21,805 nucleotides of DNA from a virus. Positions within the stretch are counted from its first letter, which is position 1; each line of letters starts with the position of its first letter. A model generated the notes under the pieces. The model did not search any database and had not been told where the DNA came from. It saw nothing but the letters and a program-made list of their open reading frames with translations. Of the stretch, positions 11,275-21,805 are shown one piece after another. The translations under genes and the position numbers were made by a program. The stretch lies in the IMG/VR virus record IMGVR_UViG_3300027782_000408, positions 1-21,805 of that record; one strand, written 5' to 3'.

Positions 11275-12183
11275 ATGGCAATCGGTTCATACGGCACAAT
11301 ACGACCAAGTGATGTTTCACCTGAAGACGTACAAATAATAATGAATTACACACCATCGAGAGATGTTACGGATAATTTTATCCTAACTGAACTTGATGCT
11401 CAAACATTATTAAAACCTTACTTTAACAATACACAAACTGGTGGAAACGCTGGTGTTGAAATTTTAGGTGGATTATACAATTTAACTTTACCTGCAGAAC
11501 AATTCAACGCTCTTGGAATTTATACTCTATATTTAAGACCAGCTCAGATTCGAACCGTTATTACTGACTGTGGTGTATTAAGCGCATTACCAAATGTAAA
11601 AGGAATTATTATTGATATTAGTAATGTTCCTGTACAATACCAAAATAAATTTGTACCACAAGGATTAGTTGGTTTTAGAATTGAATATTTAAATGCTGAC
11701 GGGTCAAAAATACCTAATTTCTTTAGAGTTGTTACTTCATCTTTTTTCTGTGAACCAGTTGTGACAAATGAAATTAATACAACTCAAAAATCTGTTAGAT
11801 ATAGATATGTTGACGGTAATTCAAATTTAATATTTCTAACATTATCACCATCTTCTTCACCAACAAACAAGCCAAACGCAACACCTTTTATTGGTCAACC
11901 AAGTCAAAGTATAATAATTAGTAACACATATTTTAATCCTGTTACATTAGAAATTGATATGGTAGAATACGATATTTCGTCTCTTGCAATTGCTCTTTAC
12001 GGTAATCAAACTAAATCTATTGACGATGGTATCTATACAATCTATGACTCTGAAAATAACATTTACAGACAGTACAACTTGTATGAAATTAGAGACCAAT
12101 TTAATGCGTTACTTTATGAAGTTAGACAAAGTAGAGGAAATAATATTGATTTCAGTAAAAACTTCACAACAATAACAACTTAA
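11275..12183 (+). CDS. Unrecognised tail/baseplate-region protein, 302 residues
   Basis: ATG 11275 follows a 25-base A-rich gap; the gene ends in a TAATG overlap with the 994-residue gene, suggesting coupled expression. The N-terminal 50 residues are polar and helix-prone (PSDVSPEDVQIIMNYTPSRD, then ILTELDAQTLLKPYF). Residues 60-160 appear beta-rich (YTLYLRPAQIRTVITDCG, GFRIEYLNADGSKIPNFFRV). The C-terminal 70 residues are helical and charged (YDISSLAIALYG, YNLYEIRDQFNALLYEVRQS). I recognise no domain. Its length is close to that of some outer wedge proteins such as T4 gp8, but I see no sequence support for that identity. A structural role follows from position only. Confidence 0.68.
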   Translation: MAIGSYGTIRPSDVSPEDVQIIMNYTPSRDVTDNFILTELDAQTLLKPYFNNTQTGGNAGVEILGGLYNLTLPAEQFNALGIYTLYLRPAQIRTVITDCGVLSALPNVKGIIIDISNVPVQYQNKFVPQGLVGFRIEYLNADGSKIPNFFRVVTSSFFCEPVVTNEINTTQKSVRYRYVDGNSNLIFLTLSPSSSPTNKPNATPFIGQPSQSIIISNTYFNPVTLEIDMVEYDISSLAIALYGNQTKSIDDGIYTIYDSENNIYRQYNLYEIRDQFNALLYEVRQSRGNNIDFSKNFTTITT

Positions 12184-15167
12184 TGGCAGTAGAAATAAAA
12201 GATACTAAATATTTTTATCCGCCAAGACCAGGTAGTGGCGCGGGTACTTTCTCCGACAACATTGTAGGATTACAAACTGTTGAGGGTGGAGGACTTACGC
12301 AAGGTAATTTTGAATTTACAACTGGTGTTACAGAAAAAGTTAATAGGGTTTTTAATGTAGGGGCGTTCTCAGAACCCATGTCTTTAGACATGATGGGTAT
12401 TGACAACTTAGAGGAGAGTAGAAGGATTATGGCAACCCAATTTAGGGTTTATCCAAACTATGACGTATCTCAAGTTCTTAACTTCTCAATGTATGGTTCA
12501 TTATCTAAAAGATTTAGTGTCTCTATTACAAGAATTATTAATTATTTCCCTGCATCGTTGGATGTAATGTTCAATAATGATGAGTTTACTACAGGTAATA
12601 CCGCATATGATATTGTGTATGACACGCAGAATGATGAAACATATTTTAAAGTAAATGTTGATAGGATTAACAATCCTTTTGATATTGATTATTCTGTTAG
12701 TGCGACGACAAACTTATCTATTAGAGAAATTACGGTTTCTCCATATAGGAATCTATATAATACTTATTTGGATTATTGTGTTAGTATTAATGATGATATC
12801 TTTAAAGTATTAGCGTTTGTCCCATCAGAAACATTATCTTCAGGATATATCCAATTCTATGTTTCTGGTTCACCATTTGGTGTTTCTGCAACTACAATTA
12901 ATGATGATTTTCAAATTAGACCTAACGATTATATTGTTGACAAAGTTTTTCAAGAATCGTTTGATGAGGTTGAGAAATTTTTGGTTAATAGATTAGTTAG
13001 ACCTGAATATACTGCAGTTTTTCAAGTACCACAACAAAATGAATATGGTCAAACATATACTGAATATAAACAAGTTACTTGGCCAAAACAAGGTACTTGG
13101 AATTTGGACATTCGTTCATTTTTATTTGATAATTATTTGGAGGAAATCCAAGCAATTTCAATTAATCTTGATTCGTTCAAAACAAATTTAATATCAAGAT
13201 TTTTAATAACAGATTCATTAAAAGAATTTGATACTTTAGGTCAAAAAGTTGAAAAAATATTTCAAATTTATGGTAGAAGTTTTGACCAAATAAAACAATT
13301 CATTGATGGGTTAGCATACATGAATTCTGTTAACTATAACCCAAGTAATGACATTCCATCAGAATTGTTAGTAAACTTGGCAAGAACATTAGGTTGGTCA
13401 TCAAACTTTTCACCAATTACAAATGAAGATTTTTTAAGTTCTGTTTTTGGTAACACATCAACTCCAACATATCCTGGTTATGCTAGAGCATTAACTCCAA
13501 CAGAATTAAATTATGCTTATTATAGAAATTTAATTCTTAACGCTTCTTACCTTTTTAAATCAAAAGGAACTAGAAGGTCAATTGAATTTTTATTAAGATT
13601 AATTGGAGCTCCTGATTCGTTAATTGAATATAACGAACACATTTATTTGGCAGACCAAAGAATTAACCTTGAGCAATTTAACACTCAATGGGCTAGTATA
13701 TCAGGTGGAACTTATGTTAATGACGTTCCAAGTTATTTACCTGATGAAACGTATAAAATTAAAGGACAATTATATACAGCGTTTACCTCAACAGCAACAT
13801 ATCAAGATGTTAATATTATGTTGGATGATTATCCAATTGATGCTGAAGGATATCCAAACGCACCTGCTAATACTGAAACATTCTTCTTCCAAATAGGTGC
13901 TGGTTGGTATGAAGTTACACCACAACATAGAAGTCCCGACCAAGTTCAACTTACAGGTAATGTTTATACAGGACAAAACTATAACATTCAAACTCAATTA
14001 ACCCCATTCACTTATGGTCAGACTTATCTTAACAGATATAGAGATTTCCCATACATGAATGAAGGATTTAAATTACAAAAAGTTGTTGATAATAATAAAT
14101 CATGGTTATCAGACGATGAAAAAATCAGAGTTTCAACACAAGGGGATTACAATGCCTATTATTATGTTGATAATGAAAAATTGGTATTAAATGTTAAGAA
14201 TGTTGATATATTCTTAAATCCAGCCCAAGGTCTTGTTTATGATGTTTGGGAGCAATCAAGACAATATGATTACCCTATCCCTGAATCAGGTTTAACGGTT
14301 GGTTATCCTGTACCAGGCGGGGTTGATTGGACTTACGTTGACCCACAACCAAAGAAAAAAACTTTCTTTGAATTTTCTCAAACATTTTGGGAGAATATGA
14401 TTAATACTAGAAATAGACAATATATTTCTGATGGTAAGACTGGTGGATACCCAACCTTACAATCAATATTTTGGAAGTATATTGAATCGGAACAAACTGT
14501 TGGGATACCAAACAACAAATACACCTATCAAAAGTTAATTGATTATGTTAATGGTATTGGCCCTTATTGGACTAAGTTGGTTGAACAGATGGTTCCTGCA
14601 ACAACTATTTGGAATGGCGGAGTTAGATTAGAAAATTCAATCTTTAATAAACAAAAATTTGTTTATAGAAGACAAAGAGGTTGTCAGTTTATTCCTGTAC
14701 CTGTTGACCCATGTTATATTATTTCAAACATTTTTGATTATACGTGTAATACCGAATATGCCGATTTTAACATTTATCCTTGGTTTAATGGGGATGTTAC
14801 AGTATCAAACTTTAGTAGTATTTTAGGTAATAGAATTAATTCTATGTTAGGACAAAGTGGTTTAACACTTAATCAATGTTATCAAAATTCAGTGATAAGT
14901 GATTGGTATGTTGACTTAACTATTAATGGGGAACAAATTATTAAAGAATCATTTTATACTGGTTATGGTATTTCTGATGTACCGACTGATTCACAATGGA
15001 GAAATGCTTTAATAAATTATTTACCTCAATTATATAATTATGGATACACATATTACCTAAATGGTAATACATTAACTATAACAAATTTAACATGTTTAAC
15101 ACAAAATATTGTGGATACGGTTTTGTTAAATGTGGGAATAAACATTAATATTAACTGTACAGAATAA
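12183..15167 (+). CDS. Large baseplate protein, possible tail-protein-I-like region and shared C-terminal domain
   Basis: A 994-residue protein starting at a TAATG overlap. Residues 340-475 are helical: a long coiled-looking segment (LKEFDTLGQKVEKIFQIYG, SFDQIKQFIDGLAYMN), then SELLVNLARTLGW, then YYRNLILNASYLFKSKGTRR with SIEFLLRLIGAP. The KGT-x-x-x-I-x-x-L-x-x-x-x-G pattern near the end of a helical block recalls phage tail protein I (P2 gpI) family members, which belong to the baseplate wedge; T4 gp7 is similar in size. Both comparisons are tentative. The rest is Tyr/Asn-rich beta sequence. From about residue 855 cysteines appear, and residues 876-994 resemble a domain in the next protein. 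No membrane segment is seen. It is the last clearly baseplate-like gene before the adhesin block. Confidence 0.72.
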   Translation: MAVEIKDTKYFYPPRPGSGAGTFSDNIVGLQTVEGGGLTQGNFEFTTGVTEKVNRVFNVGAFSEPMSLDMMGIDNLEESRRIMATQFRVYPNYDVSQVLNFSMYGSLSKRFSVSITRIINYFPASLDVMFNNDEFTTGNTAYDIVYDTQNDETYFKVNVDRINNPFDIDYSVSATTNLSIREITVSPYRNLYNTYLDYCVSINDDIFKVLAFVPSETLSSGYIQFYVSGSPFGVSATTINDDFQIRPNDYIVDKVFQESFDEVEKFLVNRLVRPEYTAVFQVPQQNEYGQTYTEYKQVTWPKQGTWNLDIRSFLFDNYLEEIQAISINLDSFKTNLISRFLITDSLKEFDTLGQKVEKIFQIYGRSFDQIKQFIDGLAYMNSVNYNPSNDIPSELLVNLARTLGWSSNFSPITNEDFLSSVFGNTSTPTYPGYARALTPTELNYAYYRNLILNASYLFKSKGTRRSIEFLLRLIGAPDSLIEYNEHIYLADQRINLEQFNTQWASISGGTYVNDVPSYLPDETYKIKGQLYTAFTSTATYQDVNIMLDDYPIDAEGYPNAPANTETFFFQIGAGWYEVTPQHRSPDQVQLTGNVYTGQNYNIQTQLTPFTYGQTYLNRYRDFPYMNEGFKLQKVVDNNKSWLSDDEKIRVSTQGDYNAYYYVDNEKLVLNVKNVDIFLNPAQGLVYDVWEQSRQYDYPIPESGLTVGYPVPGGVDWTYVDPQPKKKTFFEFSQTFWENMINTRNRQYISDGKTGGYPTLQSIFWKYIESEQTVGIPNNKYTYQKLIDYVNGIGPYWTKLVEQMVPATTIWNGGVRLENSIFNKQKFVYRRQRGCQFIPVPVDPCYIISNIFDYTCNTEYADFNIYPWFNGDVTVSNFSSILGNRINSMLGQSGLTLNQCYQNSVISDWYVDLTINGEQIIKESFYTGYGISDVPTDSQWRNALINYLPQLYNYGYTYYLNGNTLTITNLTCLTQNIVDTVLLNVGINININCTE

Positions 15168-17758
15168 TGTCGGCGTTTCAATATAATATATCCACAACAG
15201 GTGATTGTTCAAACACAAATGTTGGGTCAATATCTATTTCATTTGTTGGAGGTACTCCACCATATACTGTTGAGTGGGTAGACCCAAATTTAGGTACCGA
15301 TACTGTTACCACAAATCCTTCAGTTAGAACATCGTTAAGTGCTGATACATATACCATTAGAGTTAATGATAGTACAATACCTGTCAATCAAGAATTTTAT
15401 ATTAACATTCCTGTGTCATCAGGTGTTTGTACCAGTATTGTTTCGGTTCAAAGTACAACATGCGCTTTAGATAATGGTTCAGTTACAGGTACATCTACTT
15501 CAGATTACTCATCAACTAATTTTTATCTATATTTTTCTGATGATACATTTGTTAGTTCTGCTACAACAAATACCTCGACAGTTGTTTTTGGTAGTTTAAC
15601 CGCAGGAACATATTATATGACTGCACAAGATTTGGGTGGATGTACAGGACAAAGTGCTAATTTTATTGTTGAAGATAGTAACCCATTTACTTATGGTTTA
15701 TATGTTGTGCCTAATTCAAGTTGTGGTGGTACACCGATAGGTAAAATAATTGTAACAGGACAAACAGGTGTTGCGCCATATTCTTATTTGTGGAGTAACG
15801 GATTTACAACAAGTAGTATAACTGGTTTAACTCCTGGTACATACTCAGTTGTTGTTACTGATAGTTTAGGATGTTCTTTAACTCAAACAGGGGTTATTAG
15901 TGACGTTCCTGTTCTTGGTTTTGGTTCTTTTACTGCAATTCAACCAAGTTGTTTTTCTTCAAACGGTGTCTTAACTTTACAAATCACTGGTGGTACTGCA
16001 CCTTATTATTATTCCGCATCAACTGGAAATGTTCAGATTCAATATGCAACATCTTTTTCATTATCTGGATTATCTGCGGGTGATTATTCAATATCGGTTA
16101 CAGATTCGGCTTTTTGTAATATTGTTGTTAGTACAACATTATTGACTCCTTTAGGAATTGCTTCTGTTACAATATCAAGTCAAGGTACAACTTGCTCAAG
16201 TGAAGGTGGTTCAATTACCGTTTCAGTTGCAGGAGGAACTTCACCTTATACGTTTACATTAATTTATCCTAACGGTAATACTACTAATATTGTGAATTCT
16301 CAAACAACACAAGTATTTGGTGGATTGTCTAGTGGAACATATGGTGTTGTTGTACAAGATGCATCAGGATGTTCATATATGGATGAGATTACTTTATTTG
16401 CCACAAATACATATACAATTGCAACTGAAATTACGGGTACAACTTGTAATGAAGACAATGGTATGGTCTTAGTTACAAGAAGTGAAGGTGGTGAACCTCC
16501 GTATAATTATTCTTTAGATGATGTTCAAAATGTATTAAACACAACATTGTCCGCAGTTACCTTTACGAACGTATCTTCAGGTCAACATACAGTAAGTGTT
16601 ACAGATGCTTCAGGATGTACTCAAACAACACAAGTATATGTTGCGGAAAGTGAACCATTGGATTTTAGTTTATATAATACCTCATGTGGAAATGGTTCTG
16701 ATGGGACTTTAACCGCATTAATTTCAAGCGGAACTCCACCATATACATTTAATTGGTCAAGTAATGTTGATAATAATCCACAACAAATACAAGTAACTGG
16801 ATTAACAGCAGGAACTTATAGTTTAACTGTTGTAGACAGTATTGGTTGTTCATTACAAAGAAGCGCAATTATTAATTGTGAAGCTCTTTATGTTTCATAC
16901 CAAACTTATGTTATGGGAGGAGAACAATTTAATATTCAGTCACAAACAAAATACGGACTACTTCAAATGTTAAATGAAGGGTTTGACGACTTAACTAATG
17001 ATAAGGTTAATTGTGATTTAATTTCTGCGGTATACGGTGTTAAAGTTTCTGTTAACCCTATGGGATTAACTACAAGCCAAAATTTCTTTACTGGTACAAC
17101 ATTGGTTGCCGCTCCAAGTGATAACCTTTATTATGACACAGTTAAAGATTTATTATTAACGGTACCTGGTGTTGGTAGTGTTACTATTGATGCTGTAAAT
17201 AATCAAATAACAATTAGTACTGACCCAAGTAATACAAATTTAAATGGACAAGAAATTGTGGTTGAATTAACCATAGTTTATGATATTATGTGTTTGTCTT
17301 GTGATTTACCAACACCAACTCCAACAACTACACCAACTCAAACAACGACACCAACTCCAACGCCAACAATACCAATTGTTAGTCCAACAACTACACCAAC
17401 TCAAACAACAACACCGAGTATTACTCCAACTAAAACGGTAACACCAACTATAACAAAAACTCCAACTCAGACTCCAACACATACTCCAACACCAACCATA
17501 TCATATAGAGCACATAGTTTAGTTACGTGTTATGCTTCATGTGGTGGAGGAATTTGTAGATGTGTTGCACCAACGACAACAATTACAGTATATACTTCGC
17601 CAAACACAACTAACATATGGGCGTCTGGTGCGATAATTTATACTAACTCATCATTAACTACATTATTAGATAATGTATTTTCTCAACATAACGGAGCTAT
17701 GTATATATTCAATAATGGTGTTGCGTATTATGAATGTAATTTAGGTGCAGGATGTTAA
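15167..17758 (+). CDS. SprB-like modular tail adhesin with Thr/Pro linker and Cys-rich tip
   Basis: An 863-residue protein, begun by a TAATG overlap. Residues 5-571 are seven Ig-like modules of about 75-80 residues (roughly 5-83, 88-168, 173-246, 250-326, 330-410, 414-494, 497-571). Each has a GGT-x-PY-x-(Y/F) strand (weakest in module 2), a GL-(T/S)-x-GTY-(S/T)-(V/I)-x-V-x-D segment and usually a closing GC. This is the SprB-repeat pattern of secreted Bacteroidota adhesins such as the gliding adhesin SprB. Residues 575-709 form a separate domain, apparently related to the end of the preceding protein. Residues 715-778 are a Thr/Pro linker (17309-17500). The last 83 residues begin with CYASCGGGICRC and end in C; they may be a compact binding tip. 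No signal peptide is visible, consistent with a virion protein. A host-binding tail adhesin is inferred from the modules and position. Confidence 0.85.
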   Translation: MSAFQYNISTTGDCSNTNVGSISISFVGGTPPYTVEWVDPNLGTDTVTTNPSVRTSLSADTYTIRVNDSTIPVNQEFYINIPVSSGVCTSIVSVQSTTCALDNGSVTGTSTSDYSSTNFYLYFSDDTFVSSATTNTSTVVFGSLTAGTYYMTAQDLGGCTGQSANFIVEDSNPFTYGLYVVPNSSCGGTPIGKIIVTGQTGVAPYSYLWSNGFTTSSITGLTPGTYSVVVTDSLGCSLTQTGVISDVPVLGFGSFTAIQPSCFSSNGVLTLQITGGTAPYYYSASTGNVQIQYATSFSLSGLSAGDYSISVTDSAFCNIVVSTTLLTPLGIASVTISSQGTTCSSEGGSITVSVAGGTSPYTFTLIYPNGNTTNIVNSQTTQVFGGLSSGTYGVVVQDASGCSYMDEITLFATNTYTIATEITGTTCNEDNGMVLVTRSEGGEPPYNYSLDDVQNVLNTTLSAVTFTNVSSGQHTVSVTDASGCTQTTQVYVAESEPLDFSLYNTSCGNGSDGTLTALISSGTPPYTFNWSSNVDNNPQQIQVTGLTAGTYSLTVVDSIGCSLQRSAIINCEALYVSYQTYVMGGEQFNIQSQTKYGLLQMLNEGFDDLTNDKVNCDLISAVYGVKVSVNPMGLTTSQNFFTGTTLVAAPSDNLYYDTVKDLLLTVPGVGSVTIDAVNNQITISTDPSNTNLNGQEIVVELTIVYDIMCLSCDLPTPTPTTTPTQTTTPTPTPTIPIVSPTTTPTQTTTPSITPTKTVTPTITKTPTQTPTHTPTPTISYRAHSLVTCYASCGGGICRCVAPTTTITVYTSPNTTNIWASGAIIYTNSSLTTLLDNVFSQHNGAMYIFNNGVAYYECNLGAGC
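17309..17500 (+). repeat. Thr/Pro linker-coding repeat in the SprB-like adhesin
   Basis: An imperfect low-complexity run encoding PTPTPTTTPTQTTTPTPTPT-type sequence (residues 715-778). The 19-base stretch CCAACAACTACACCAACTC is repeated, followed by AAACAAC, near 17326 and 17386. It separates the folded domain at 575-709 from the Cys-rich tip and probably makes an extended, flexible stalk. Confidence 0.75.
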
Positions 17759-18167: not shown

Positions 18168-19535
18168 ATGTCAACATATTCTATATTAGTAACAAATAAT
18201 GCTCCAGGATGCGCAACTGAAATTGAACAACAATTAACAGTTACAGGATGTACATCTTACATTGTAAGACTAACGTCTAATTCAAATGCATTAGGTCCAT
18301 TTAACGTATATCTTGATGACGTAATTTATTATTCTGCACAGACAAGAAACGAGATGTTAAATGGTGTTGTGGTTACTATTGAATGTGGTACACCAACACC
18401 AACTCCAACACCGACCCAAACTCCTGCCAGCGTAACACCAACCGTTACTCCAACAAATACTTCAACTCCAACTGTTACCCCTACTAATACTGAAACACCT
18501 ACAAATACTCCAACTAATACTCCTACTAATACTCAGACTCCAACTAATACCCCAACCAACACTCAAACACCTACACCTACTAATACTGAAACACCAACAA
18601 ATACACCAACGGTCACTCCAACAAATACGCCAACAAATACTGAAACACCTACAAATACTCCAACAAATACACCAACAAATACTCAAACACCGACGCCAAC
18701 TAATACTCAAACGCCTACAAATACACCAACGGTTACTCCAACAAATACACCAACAAATACTGAAACACCTACAAATACTCCAACAAATACACCAACAAAT
18801 ACTGGTACTCCAACAAACACTCCAACTAATACTGGAACTCCAACAAATACGCCAACAAATACTCAAACTCCAACTCCGACTAACACCCAAACACCAACAC
18901 CTACTAATACTCCAACACCAACAGGTGTTCCATTTAGTGGTTATGTTTTCCCTGAACCACAAGATTCAACATCGCAATCTGATATAGGTTTGTGGACATT
19001 TAATGCGGGTGGTAATTATAATGGATTTACTAATAATGGTGGACTTGCGGGTGGAGCGACATACGCCGCTGACATGGCAATCTACGTTCAATATCCTGGA
19101 TGGACGGGCTCAAGTGGTAATTTCATCACCAACGTTGGTACAATTAAAAATTCAATAAGACAAGCCTCAGGTTCTGGAACTGACTCACAAGGATGTGCGC
19201 AAAATCAATATACGTTTGGAAGTATTGGTATTACAACAACTACGGTTAATCCTAATGAACAATATGTTTATACTGTTTGGATTCCATTGGCTGGTGTTGG
19301 AGGAGCATTAACTAACATGACAATAGATGTTGGTACTGGTGCGGCTTGTTCGGTTTCAATTGTTAATGATGGTATTCCTGACGGTGGAAATGCGGCAATA
19401 AATGTAACGGTTCCAGGAGGATGTGTAATACCTGCTGGTGTGTATAGAGTTTTATGGTTAACTGAACTTTATTATGTTCCACCTACACTACCGTTAGCAT
19501 CAACTATTTGGATTAAAGGTGATACTAAAACATAA
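18168..19535 (+). CDS. Thr/Pro-stalk tail protein with distinct C-terminal domain
   Basis: A 455-residue protein in three parts. Residues 1-73 hold two Cys-bounded beta segments; the first, [14 protein letters not shown], looks like the closing half of an SprB-like module with no opening half. Residues 75-252 are an uninterrupted Thr/Pro/Asn stalk built from [12 protein letters not shown] and TPTVTPTNT units (18390-18923). Residues 253-455 are a Gly/Ser/Thr-rich, apparently beta-sandwich domain ([54 protein letters not shown]). I do not recognise it; it may be the receptor- or glycan-binding head. The design parallels the end of the SprB-like gene, where a Cys-bounded domain, a Thr/Pro linker and a tip occur in the same order. 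Reading frames on the opposite strand are products of the repeat. Confidence 0.78.
18390..18923 (+). repeat. PTNT stalk-coding tandem repeat with a 120-bp higher-order period
   Basis: A 534-base low-complexity run in frame with the gene (178 codons) built from ACTCCAACAAATAC-type units with many synonymous changes. Within it, 18601-18683 and 18721-18803 are copies exactly 120 bases apart that differ at only two positions (18614 C/T, 18629 G/A), showing a 40-codon higher-order unit. The rest of the array has diverged further. Confidence 0.85.
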
Positions 19536-19565: not shown

Positions 19566-21805
19566 ATGTCATTTGATTATAAAAATCCACTATCATCCTC
19601 ACAATTAAGTGGCACTCAAAGTGTTGCAAGGACTTCAACATTTGGTAATACTTTTTCTGTATTAAATGTCGGTGGTTATATGGAGGTCTATTATTTAAGA
19701 GACCTTGAATTAATCCTTACAGCTTCAACATATCCTGCAAATATACAATTATCTGCAAATACGATACCAATTAACTTTACCAAAGGAACTGGTTCAGCAT
19801 TTTCTCCTGATAGTATAAGTTTATACTCGGATAATATTTCTTCAGGTAGAAGAAGATTGGGTATGCAGGTTTATGTTCAAGAAACTGACACTGTTTATCA
19901 ATATGTTATTAGTAATTATGAGACTTTATGGAACGCATTATCTGGACTTACAGGTACTTCGGCAAAAACTATTACGGATTATTCTACGGTTGTTAACAGT
20001 CGTTCACAAGCAGGTAAAGATTTTATAAATGCTTGGACTGGCTCAACAATTGAAGGTGTTGGTGGTGTTACAAAGAATGACGCTAGATGGCAAATATTTT
20101 GGGGTAGTGATGTTCAAATTACGGGTGGAACTTATTTTTCAGGAACATCTGATTTAGAATTATATAATAGTACTGGTGGTACAATAACAATTACAGGGTT
20201 AACCGCACCTATTACAGGTGGAACCTATAACACAGGTAGTGAAACTTTAACTCTAACCAATTCACTTGGTCAGAATATTCAAGTAACTGGATTTACAGGC
20301 GGTGGTTCTGGTTCATCAGGTACTAGCGGTTCTTCAGGAACATCAGGAACTAGTGGAAGCTCAGGTTTAAGCGGAGTTGATGGTAGTTCAGGTTCATCAG
20401 GGACTTCAGGTTCTTCAGGAACGTCTGGGTTGGAAGGTAACTTAGCTCAGTGGAGATTCACAGGTTCTACTAACACATCAATAAATCCTGGGTCAGGATA
20501 TTTTGCTTTGAATACAGGAGATGATTTTTCTCAAACAACAACTTCAGTTTCAATAAGTGATAACGCATATAACCCTGCAATTTCATTTCAGACTTTTCTT
20601 AATAATGTCAGTATTGGTACTTTATTTAAATTTGTAAGAGTTAATGATTTATCATACTATAAAATATTACAGGTTACTGCCGTAACTCCTTTATCATCAG
20701 GATTTGAAGATTATACAGTTACTCAAATTGCGGGTTCTGGAGCATCTGCAGTACCAAACAATACAGAATTTATATTGATTGTATTAGGTGCTGCTGGAGC
20801 ATCAGGTTCATCAGGTTCATCAGGAACATCTGGTTCAAGTGGTACTTCAGGTTCTTCAGGAACTAGCGGTAGCTCAGGAACAAGTGGTTCATCAGGAACT
20901 AGTGGTAGTGATGGTACTTCAGGTAGCTCAGGAACATCAGGTTCAAGTGGTTCATCAGGAACTAGTGGAATAGATGGTTCTTCAGGAACTAGCGGTAGCT
21001 CAGGAACTAGCGGTAGCTCAGGAACTAGCGGAACTTCAGGAACATCAGGTTCGGATGGTACTTCGGGTAGTTCAGGAACAAGTGGTTCGTCAGGAACTAG
21101 TGGTTCAGATGGTACTTCAGGTAGCTCAGGAACATCAGGTTCAAGTGGTTCATCAGGAACTAGCGGTTCAGACGGAACATCAGGTAGCTCAGGAACTAGC
21201 GGTAGTGATGGTACTTCAGGTTCATCAGGAACTAGCGGTTCAGACGGAACATCAGGTAGCTCAGGAACTAGCGGTAGTGATGGTACTTCAGGTAGCTCAG
21301 GTACATCAGGTTCATCAGGAACTAGCGGTTCAGACGGAACATCAGGTTCATCAGGAACTAGCGGTAGTGATGGTACTTCAGGTTCATCAGGAACTAGCGG
21401 TTCAGACGGAACATCAGGTTCATCAGGAACTAGCGGTTCAGACGGAACATCAGGTTCATCAGGAACTAGCGGTTCAGACGGAACATCAGGTTCATCAGGA
21501 ACTAGCGGTTCAGACGGAACATCAGGTTCATCAGGAACTAGTGGTACTTCAGGAACTAGCGGTTCAGACGGAACATCAGGTAGCTCAGGAACATCAGGTT
21601 CAAGTGGTTCTTCAGGAACATCAGGTACAGACGGAACTAGCGGTTCTTCAGGAACATCGGGTACAGACGGAACTAGCGGTTCTTCAGGAACATCAGGTAC
21701 AGACGGAACAAGTGGTTCATCAGGAACATCAGGTACGGATGGAACAAGCGGTTCTTCGGGAACATCGGGCACATCAGCTTTAATTTGTACACCATTCTTA
21801 TCAGG
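19566..21805 (+). CDS. Collagen-like tail fibre protein (partial, open at right edge)
   Basis: The reading frame from ATG 19566 stays open to the end of the window (746 complete codons). Residues 1-248 form a beta-type N-terminal part, probably the tail-attachment end. It includes LNVGGYMEVYYLRDLELILT, an acidic and aromatic middle (ARWQIFWGSDVQITGGTYF), and GGT-x-TITGLTAPITGGTY-like repeats. Residues 249-290 are 14 Gly-X-Y triplets (20310-20435). Residues 291-407 form a folded domain (WRFTGSTNTSINPGSGYFAL; FKFVRVNDLSYYKILQVTAV). Residues 408-737 are 110 unbroken Gly-X-Y triplets, mostly GTS, GSS and GSD/GTD, with no proline and no positive charge. The last residues, SALICTPFLSG, leave the repeat and begin another domain. 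Trimeric collagen-like shafts are known in phage fibres. The A-rich leader at 19532-19558 precedes the start. Long open frames on the other strand and in other frames over this stretch are repeat shadows. Confidence 0.85.
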   Translation, partial: MSFDYKNPLSSSQLSGTQSVARTSTFGNTFSVLNVGGYMEVYYLRDLELILTASTYPANIQLSANTIPINFTKGTGSAFSPDSISLYSDNISSGRRRLGMQVYVQETDTVYQYVISNYETLWNALSGLTGTSAKTITDYSTVVNSRSQAGKDFINAWTGSTIEGVGGVTKNDARWQIFWGSDVQITGGTYFSGTSDLELYNSTGGTITITGLTAPITGGTYNTGSETLTLTNSLGQNIQVTGFTGGGSGSSGTSGSSGTSGTSGSSGLSGVDGSSGSSGTSGSSGTSGLEGNLAQWRFTGSTNTSINPGSGYFALNTGDDFSQTTTSVSISDNAYNPAISFQTFLNNVSIGTLFKFVRVNDLSYYKILQVTAVTPLSSGFEDYTVTQIAGSGASAVPNNTEFILIVLGAAGASGSSGSSGTSGSSGTSGSSGTSGSSGTSGSSGTSGSDGTSGSSGTSGSSGSSGTSGIDGSSGTSGSSGTSGSSGTSGTSGTSGSDGTSGSSGTSGSSGTSGSDGTSGSSGTSGSSGSSGTSGSDGTSGSSGTSGSDGTSGSSGTSGSDGTSGSSGTSGSDGTSGSSGTSGSSGTSGSDGTSGSSGTSGSDGTSGSSGTSGSDGTSGSSGTSGSDGTSGSSGTSGSDGTSGSSGTSGSDGTSGSSGTSGTSGTSGSDGTSGSSGTSGSSGSSGTSGTDGTSGSSGTSGTDGTSGSSGTSGTDGTSGSSGTSGTDGTSGSSGTSGTSALICTPFLS
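20310..20435 (+). repeat. First Gly-X-Y triplet block (14 triplets)
   Basis: 126 bases encoding 14 Gly-X-Y triplets, mainly GSS and GTS with single GLS, GVD and GLE units. It is less uniform at DNA level than the second block, suggesting an older array. A folded domain of about 117 residues separates the two blocks. Confidence 0.85.
20787..21776 (+). repeat. Second Gly-X-Y triplet block (110 triplets)
   Basis: 990 bases in which every third codon is GGN, read through without interruption. The common units are GGAACTAGC, GGTTCATCA, GGTTCAGAC and GGAACATCA. Period 9 and period 36 are both visible. The array lacks stop codons in several other frames, which explains the long shadow frames. Confidence 0.9.
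21399..21542 (+). repeat. Four tandem copies of a 36-base unit
   Basis: Copies start at 21399, 21435, 21471 and 21507. The unit begins GGTTCAGACGGAACATCAGG and ends GGAACTAGC, encoding GSDGTSGSSGTS. The first three copies are identical; the fourth differs only in its last base (AGT for AGC). Related but interrupted copies occur from about 21165. Confidence 0.9.

Follow-up and report, generated by a model that had tools for sequence, protein, structure and literature searches.

SprB-type modules are known mainly from the surface adhesins and filaments that Bacteroidota export through the type IX secretion system (T9SS). The SprB repeat proteins of these bacteria (PF13573) contain from 1 to 80 detected modules and carry the marks of recent internal duplication, the best pair within a protein having a median identity of 67%, and each of the two cysteine positions of the module is kept in 98% of 2016 bacterial copies. 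The best solved match to the module string described here is grappling hook protein A (GhpA) of Aureispira (PDB 9flp, 9fly and 9flw), a bacterial protein of several thousand residues in which no solved match to the C-terminal domain of the phage protein was found. In phages, the closest precedent is the BACON domain of crAssphage, also an Ig-like extracellular module of Bacteroidota, which forms a stable tandem array beside tail genes and is distinct from the bacterial copies; that array of eight goes back to successive duplications within a single gut lineage, and its domain family and phage group differ from those studied here (PMC6949934). Ig-like adhesins of gut phages have likewise been reported (PMC13370021). 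The nearest database entry is A0A6J5LD72 from an uncultured Caudovirales phage (UniProt/BFVD), a protein of 714 aa with 33% identity over its whole length to the protein analysed below and evidently of the same family, for which we found only the automatic name 'SprB repeat' and no description. Among openly accessible papers, to which the search was confined, no description of SprB repeats in phages was found. Both the module family and tandem arrays of Ig-like Bacteroidota domains next to tail genes of phages were known before.

The window, i.e., the whole stretch of 21,805 nucleotides analysed, comes from an IMG/VR virus contig, and its SprB-module gene encodes a protein of 863 aa in which the array fills residues 1-573 (Table 1). 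This agrees with the span of 15167-16880 given in the preliminary description, although the gene itself continues to 17758 with a C-terminal domain, a linker and a tip. The whole protein exceeded the curated cut-off of the Pfam SprB profile (E=1.2e-25; 89.2 bits against 28) with six stretches called, and six module places were listed in the window DNA; all 46 aligned relatives matched the same profile. A second profile, built from 175 modules of Bacteroidota genomes alone to lessen circularity, recovered seven domains (residues 10-70, 90-167, 181-245, 256-325, 335-410, 421-493 and 503-570), with a total of 273.6 bits against 11.9 for the best of 1000 composition-preserving shuffles. Even the weakest, module 2, reached 14.5 bits and stood above every shuffle (10.9 for the best shuffle domain). 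The count of seven modules made originally from the letters was in this way borne out, and the two signatures on which it had been based, GGT-x-PY and GTY-x-V-x-V-x-D-x-x-GC, hold strictly in some modules only: the first in modules 1, 4 and 5, being absent as a loop from module 2, and the second in module 3 alone, module 5 coming close, with variants elsewhere.

Table 1. Features of the tail gene cluster, in positions of the window
Feature	Positions	Strand	Remarks
gp25-like baseplate wedge protein, 156 aa	334..804	+	Pfam GPW_gp25 E=5.8e-11; PHROG 261 baseplate wedge
gpJ/gp6-like baseplate wedge protein, 612 aa	810..2648	+	Pfam Baseplate_J E=1.6e-8; 27-28% identity over 98% to immuto baseplate wedge protein
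994-aa gene	12183..15167	+	directly upstream of the SprB-module gene; hhalign
SprB-module protein gene	15167..17758	+	863 aa ORF
Module 1	15167..15430	+	residues 1-88; second Cys displaced
Module 2	15431..15679	+	residues 89-171; divergent
Module 3	15680..15910	+	residues 172-248
Module 4	15911..16153	+	residues 249-329
Module 5	16154..16405	+	residues 330-413
Module 6	16406..16648	+	residues 414-494
Module 7	16649..16885	+	residues 495-573; most conserved module
Alpha/beta C-domain	16886..17299	+	residues 574-711; conserved, closes the fixed core
Thr-Pro-rich linker	17300..17494	+	residues 712-776; sequence, low AF2 confidence
Small Cys-containing tip domain	17495..17758	+	exchangeable; different or missing in near relatives
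Gene of about 110 aa	17777..18103	+	108 aa in the window; directly after the SprB-module gene in most relatives
TP-linker protein, 455 aa	18168..19535	+	syntenic in most relatives
Collagen-like (Gly-X-Y) gene	19567..21805	+	sequence; runs off the contig

The likeness to the bacterial proteins lies in the module profile, in the two cysteine positions and in the Ig-like fold class. An AF2 model run with 46 sequences gave seven beta-sandwiches, the modules being predicted to adopt an Ig-like fold, followed by a C-terminal alpha/beta domain, with a pTM of 0.30, at which the model does not fix the geometry between modules. In Foldseek the best solved matches were the GhpA fragments (E down to 2.9e-19, 16-22% identity). 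The C-domain, modelled alone with a pLDDT of 80, had no PDB match at E<=0.001 and no trustworthy fold partner. As to cysteines, 100% of phage modules have the first and 85% the second, both being present almost without exception in modules 2-7, and the protein of the window contains 24, mostly in these conserved pairs, against none in the gp25-like and one in the gpJ-like protein. No hydrophobic segment was seen by eye in its N-terminus (MSAFQYNISTTGDCSN), and the Pfam search returned neither of the T9SS sorting domains CHU_C and Por_Secre_tail.

The genomic setting is that of a phage. Upstream lie the gp25-like and gpJ-type baseplate genes, separated from the 994-aa gene by several large unknown genes on the + strand, and downstream the TP-linker and collagen-like fibre genes, which confirms the phage context described earlier and rules out a chromosomal adhesin operon. 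The one-base overlap with the upstream gene was also confirmed, base 15167 belonging both to the TAA of the 994-aa gene (15165-15167) and to the ATG of the SprB-module gene (15167-15169). The designation of that upstream gene as baseplate-type has its position and a weak profile match in its favour and no other basis: residues 386-485 of its product match a 1336-aa protein of Mel-JY01 (hhalign, 90.6% probability), immuto and LR756508 gave weaker matches, while Pfam and PDB searches gave no match and nothing convincing on function came from PDB or PHROGs. It is probably a baseplate component. In the 455-aa protein a long TPTNTPTNT linker joins a small part at the N-terminus to a C-terminal domain; its counterpart in most relatives varies in size (333-713 aa). 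The collagen-like gene, with GSSGTSGSD repeats, has relatives that reach 1.5-2.1 thousand aa, and its counterpart in the 326-kb contig G001 matches tail-fibre PHROGs; its product is a probable long fibre. Two long ORFs on the - strand (20723-21772 and 18462-18962) seem to be artefacts that mirror the collagen-like repeats and the TP repeats, and not genes. Upstream of the gp25-like gene, a 75-aa ORF at 114-341 with the Cys-rich motif GSCCGNQCRHCPY looks like a small metal-binding protein.

When relatives of the 994-aa gene were collected from IMG/VR, keeping the best 80 of 246 places, the SprB-module protein followed directly in all 78 loci in which the contig continues, with the one-base overlap in 69 and a start two bases later in the other nine. 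Scanning with the SprB alignment gave 382 places, and at least 585 came from the gpJ alignment. Two related contigs reach 317 kb and 326 kb, and on the longer one (G001) genes for a ribonucleotide reductase, a DnaB-like helicase, a UvsX-like recombinase and a single-strand binding protein adjoin the same cluster. With contigs of this size and phage replication genes beside the cluster, the lineage is one of jumbo phages, which are aquatic and uncultured. By gpJ, the annotated phages closest to them share only 27-28% identity; these are Flavobacterium phage immuto, a Microcystis phage and LR756508, an uncultured phage of 484 kb. The nearest cultured Bacteroidota phage by this gene is vB_FspM_immuto (Immutovirus; 27.8%), whose gene order is broadly similar; unlike the window lineage, no SprB protein was detected near its baseplate genes, and neither HMM nor hhalign found a homologue of the SprB-module protein in immuto, Mel-JY01 or LR756508. 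Shine-Dalgarno motifs precede 3-6% of the starts in the lineage, a frequency close to that of shuffles and like that of immuto and of Bacteroidota, as compared with 29% in Mel-JY01, which makes a Bacteroidota host likely. Just two strict patterns from the phage alignment, run against 84,980 genomes, returned no relative; this says little on the host, as does a search for gpJ relatives in 396 Bacteroidota genomes, run without a positive control, which returned none.

The suggestion that related phages might differ in the number of modules was not borne out, the number being constant among the relatives examined. The 200 loci collected reduce to 80 distinct complete SprB proteins, and every one of the 80 has exactly seven modules, as have the distant relatives with 48-62% identity to the core of the window protein; proteins without an extension at either end measure 709-719 aa, a length shared by A0A6J5LD72. 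An eighth match in one relative (L390) is probably spurious, since it falls in an extension, immediately ahead of LRR-like repeats. When 133 phage and 175 bacterial modules were placed in one tree, every one of the seven positions had a clade to itself (support >=0.95), which indicates that the array is older than the radiation of the lineage; among the relatives read, it has undergone no expansion, loss or shuffling since then. Modules of one phage protein share a mean identity of only 26%, with a median of 37% and a maximum of 50% for the best pair. The same module array is free to expand in bacteria and frozen in the phage, and its constancy among the relatives examined makes it look like a standard part of the virion and not a recent or variable adhesin. 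Pairwise distances of the SprB-module protein correlate with those of the 994-aa gene (r 0.59-0.86). The protein evolves faster than that gene; module 1 diverges most, and its best-conserved parts include module 7 and the C-domain. The preliminary description had left open whether the modules were taken up from the host or shared with it from of old; an ancestry in common with the modules of Bacteroidota surface proteins stands, but recent capture is ruled out by the position-specific clades together with the co-inheritance of the array with its neighbour. As the modules are short, the tree gives no direction for an ancient transfer, and the array may descend from an old capture or from a common ancestor with the bacterial modules.

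What does vary lies outside the core. Most relatives stop at residue 711 (window numbering), beyond which two (L007 and L017) have a Thr-Pro linker only, the window protein a linker and its small Cys-containing domain, two (L009 and L016) a linker and a YNPxxNKxY-type repeat that resembles a beta-propeller, and two more (L024 and L089) a linker and other sequence. One (L390) ends in LRR-like repeats without such a linker, this fold, like the propeller, being read from the sequence, and in two (L392 and L393) Cys-rich TP-linked domains stand at the N-terminus. Across the family, variation is one of extra domains at either end, mostly attached by Thr-Pro linkers.

We consider it somewhat probable that the protein is a rod of fixed length, built of seven modules, which serves as the stalk in a tail appendage close to the baseplate and carries exchangeable tips. 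The position between baseplate and fibre genes, the fixed length, the universal presence and the exchangeable ends all fit a structural stalk that bears adhesion domains. The protein would then be a structural component of the virion of a large Bacteroidota-type phage, in which the seven Ig-like modules form the rod, a conserved alpha/beta domain closes it and the geometry of assembly sets its length. Near the surface of the host, the rod would hold accessory adhesion domains (Cys-rich, propeller-like or LRR-like), most of them attached through Thr-Pro linkers. These may make reversible contact, presumably with glycans of the host, ahead of commitment by the main fibres. The higher conservation of module 7 and the C-domain suggests that anchoring is probably at that end, although the polarity is ambiguous because relatives are extended at both N- and C-ends. 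On the same reading, hundreds of contigs from uncultured phages would encode a module of bacterial filaments that serves as a length-locked part beside the baseplate. For host recognition, the exchangeable end domains offer concrete candidates. Points against the stalk are that no fold partner was recognised for the C-domain and that the low pTM of the whole model does not fix how the modules are arranged.

The faster evolution relative to the 994-aa gene would equally suit a receptor binder, and with the divergence of module 1 it is an argument for regarding the protein as the principal, host-range-determining adhesin, whose SprB modules would themselves bind host polysaccharide. In phages of Bacteroidota, proteins with Ig-like domains can act in binding to surfaces (PMC13370021), and polysaccharide binding by the modules is plausible. 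We nevertheless hold this role unlikely: every relative read has the same core, with no module lost, gained or shuffled, and better candidates for it are found in the exchangeable tips and in the collagen-like fibre gene downstream. Quite unlikely, in turn, is a place on the head or neck, as a decoration or whisker protein comparable to Hoc or pb10. Among PHROGs the best matches are indeed to Hoc-like head decorations (E=2.1e-11), which also counts against the stalk, and weak PDB sequence matches point to a neck whisker and a decoration protein (E=0.02); these span one or two Ig modules, may reflect just the common Ig-like fold and could be obtained from any phage Ig-like domain, and in the relatives read the gene has baseplate genes on one side and fibre genes on the other.

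That the rod does more than act as a spacer and engages the T9SS surface-filament system of the host, for example by binding or riding SprB, we regard as very unlikely. It is highly improbable, too, that the protein is a secreted adhesin, a type IX cargo made during infection that alters the host surface. Its modules are those of T9SS cargo, and in the huge phage LR756502 such a protein does exist, bearing a CHU_C tail and a signal-like stretch at its N-terminus, but the window protein has neither a signal-like stretch nor a sorting domain and its gene overlaps tightly, by one base, with a tail-cluster gene; the sole Por_Secre-like match located in the relatives is internal and below the cut-off and was discounted. 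Least probable of all is a mimic of host SprB filaments, or a partner in their assembly, by which the virion would ride the gliding machinery: module homology and the conserved cysteine pairs would suit it and nothing specific was counted against it, but there is no positive evidence for mimicry, the phage modules are old and mutually divergent, and no single clade ties them to one host SprB.

Some observations lie outside the stalk reading. The conserved cysteine pairs, which may or may not form disulfides, occur in a protein without a recognisable export signal and pose a testable folding question. The protein of the 642-kb uncultured phage LR756502.1 (L112:12310-17322) has 1670 aa, 13 SprB repeats and a PKD domain, and is apparently a phage-encoded T9SS-exported adhesin; its module number, its PKD and CHU_C domains and its different context rule it out as a counterpart of the seven-module protein, and its relatives, none of which appeared among viruses in the IMG/VR scan, are encoded in many Bacteroidota genomes. 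A second SprB-like gene is present in G001 (L119:5389-7878, at about 295.4-297.9 kb), far from the baseplate cluster and among TP-linker proteins; its product of 829 aa has modules set between Thr-Pro linkers, and similar matches occur in G002, G004 and G005.
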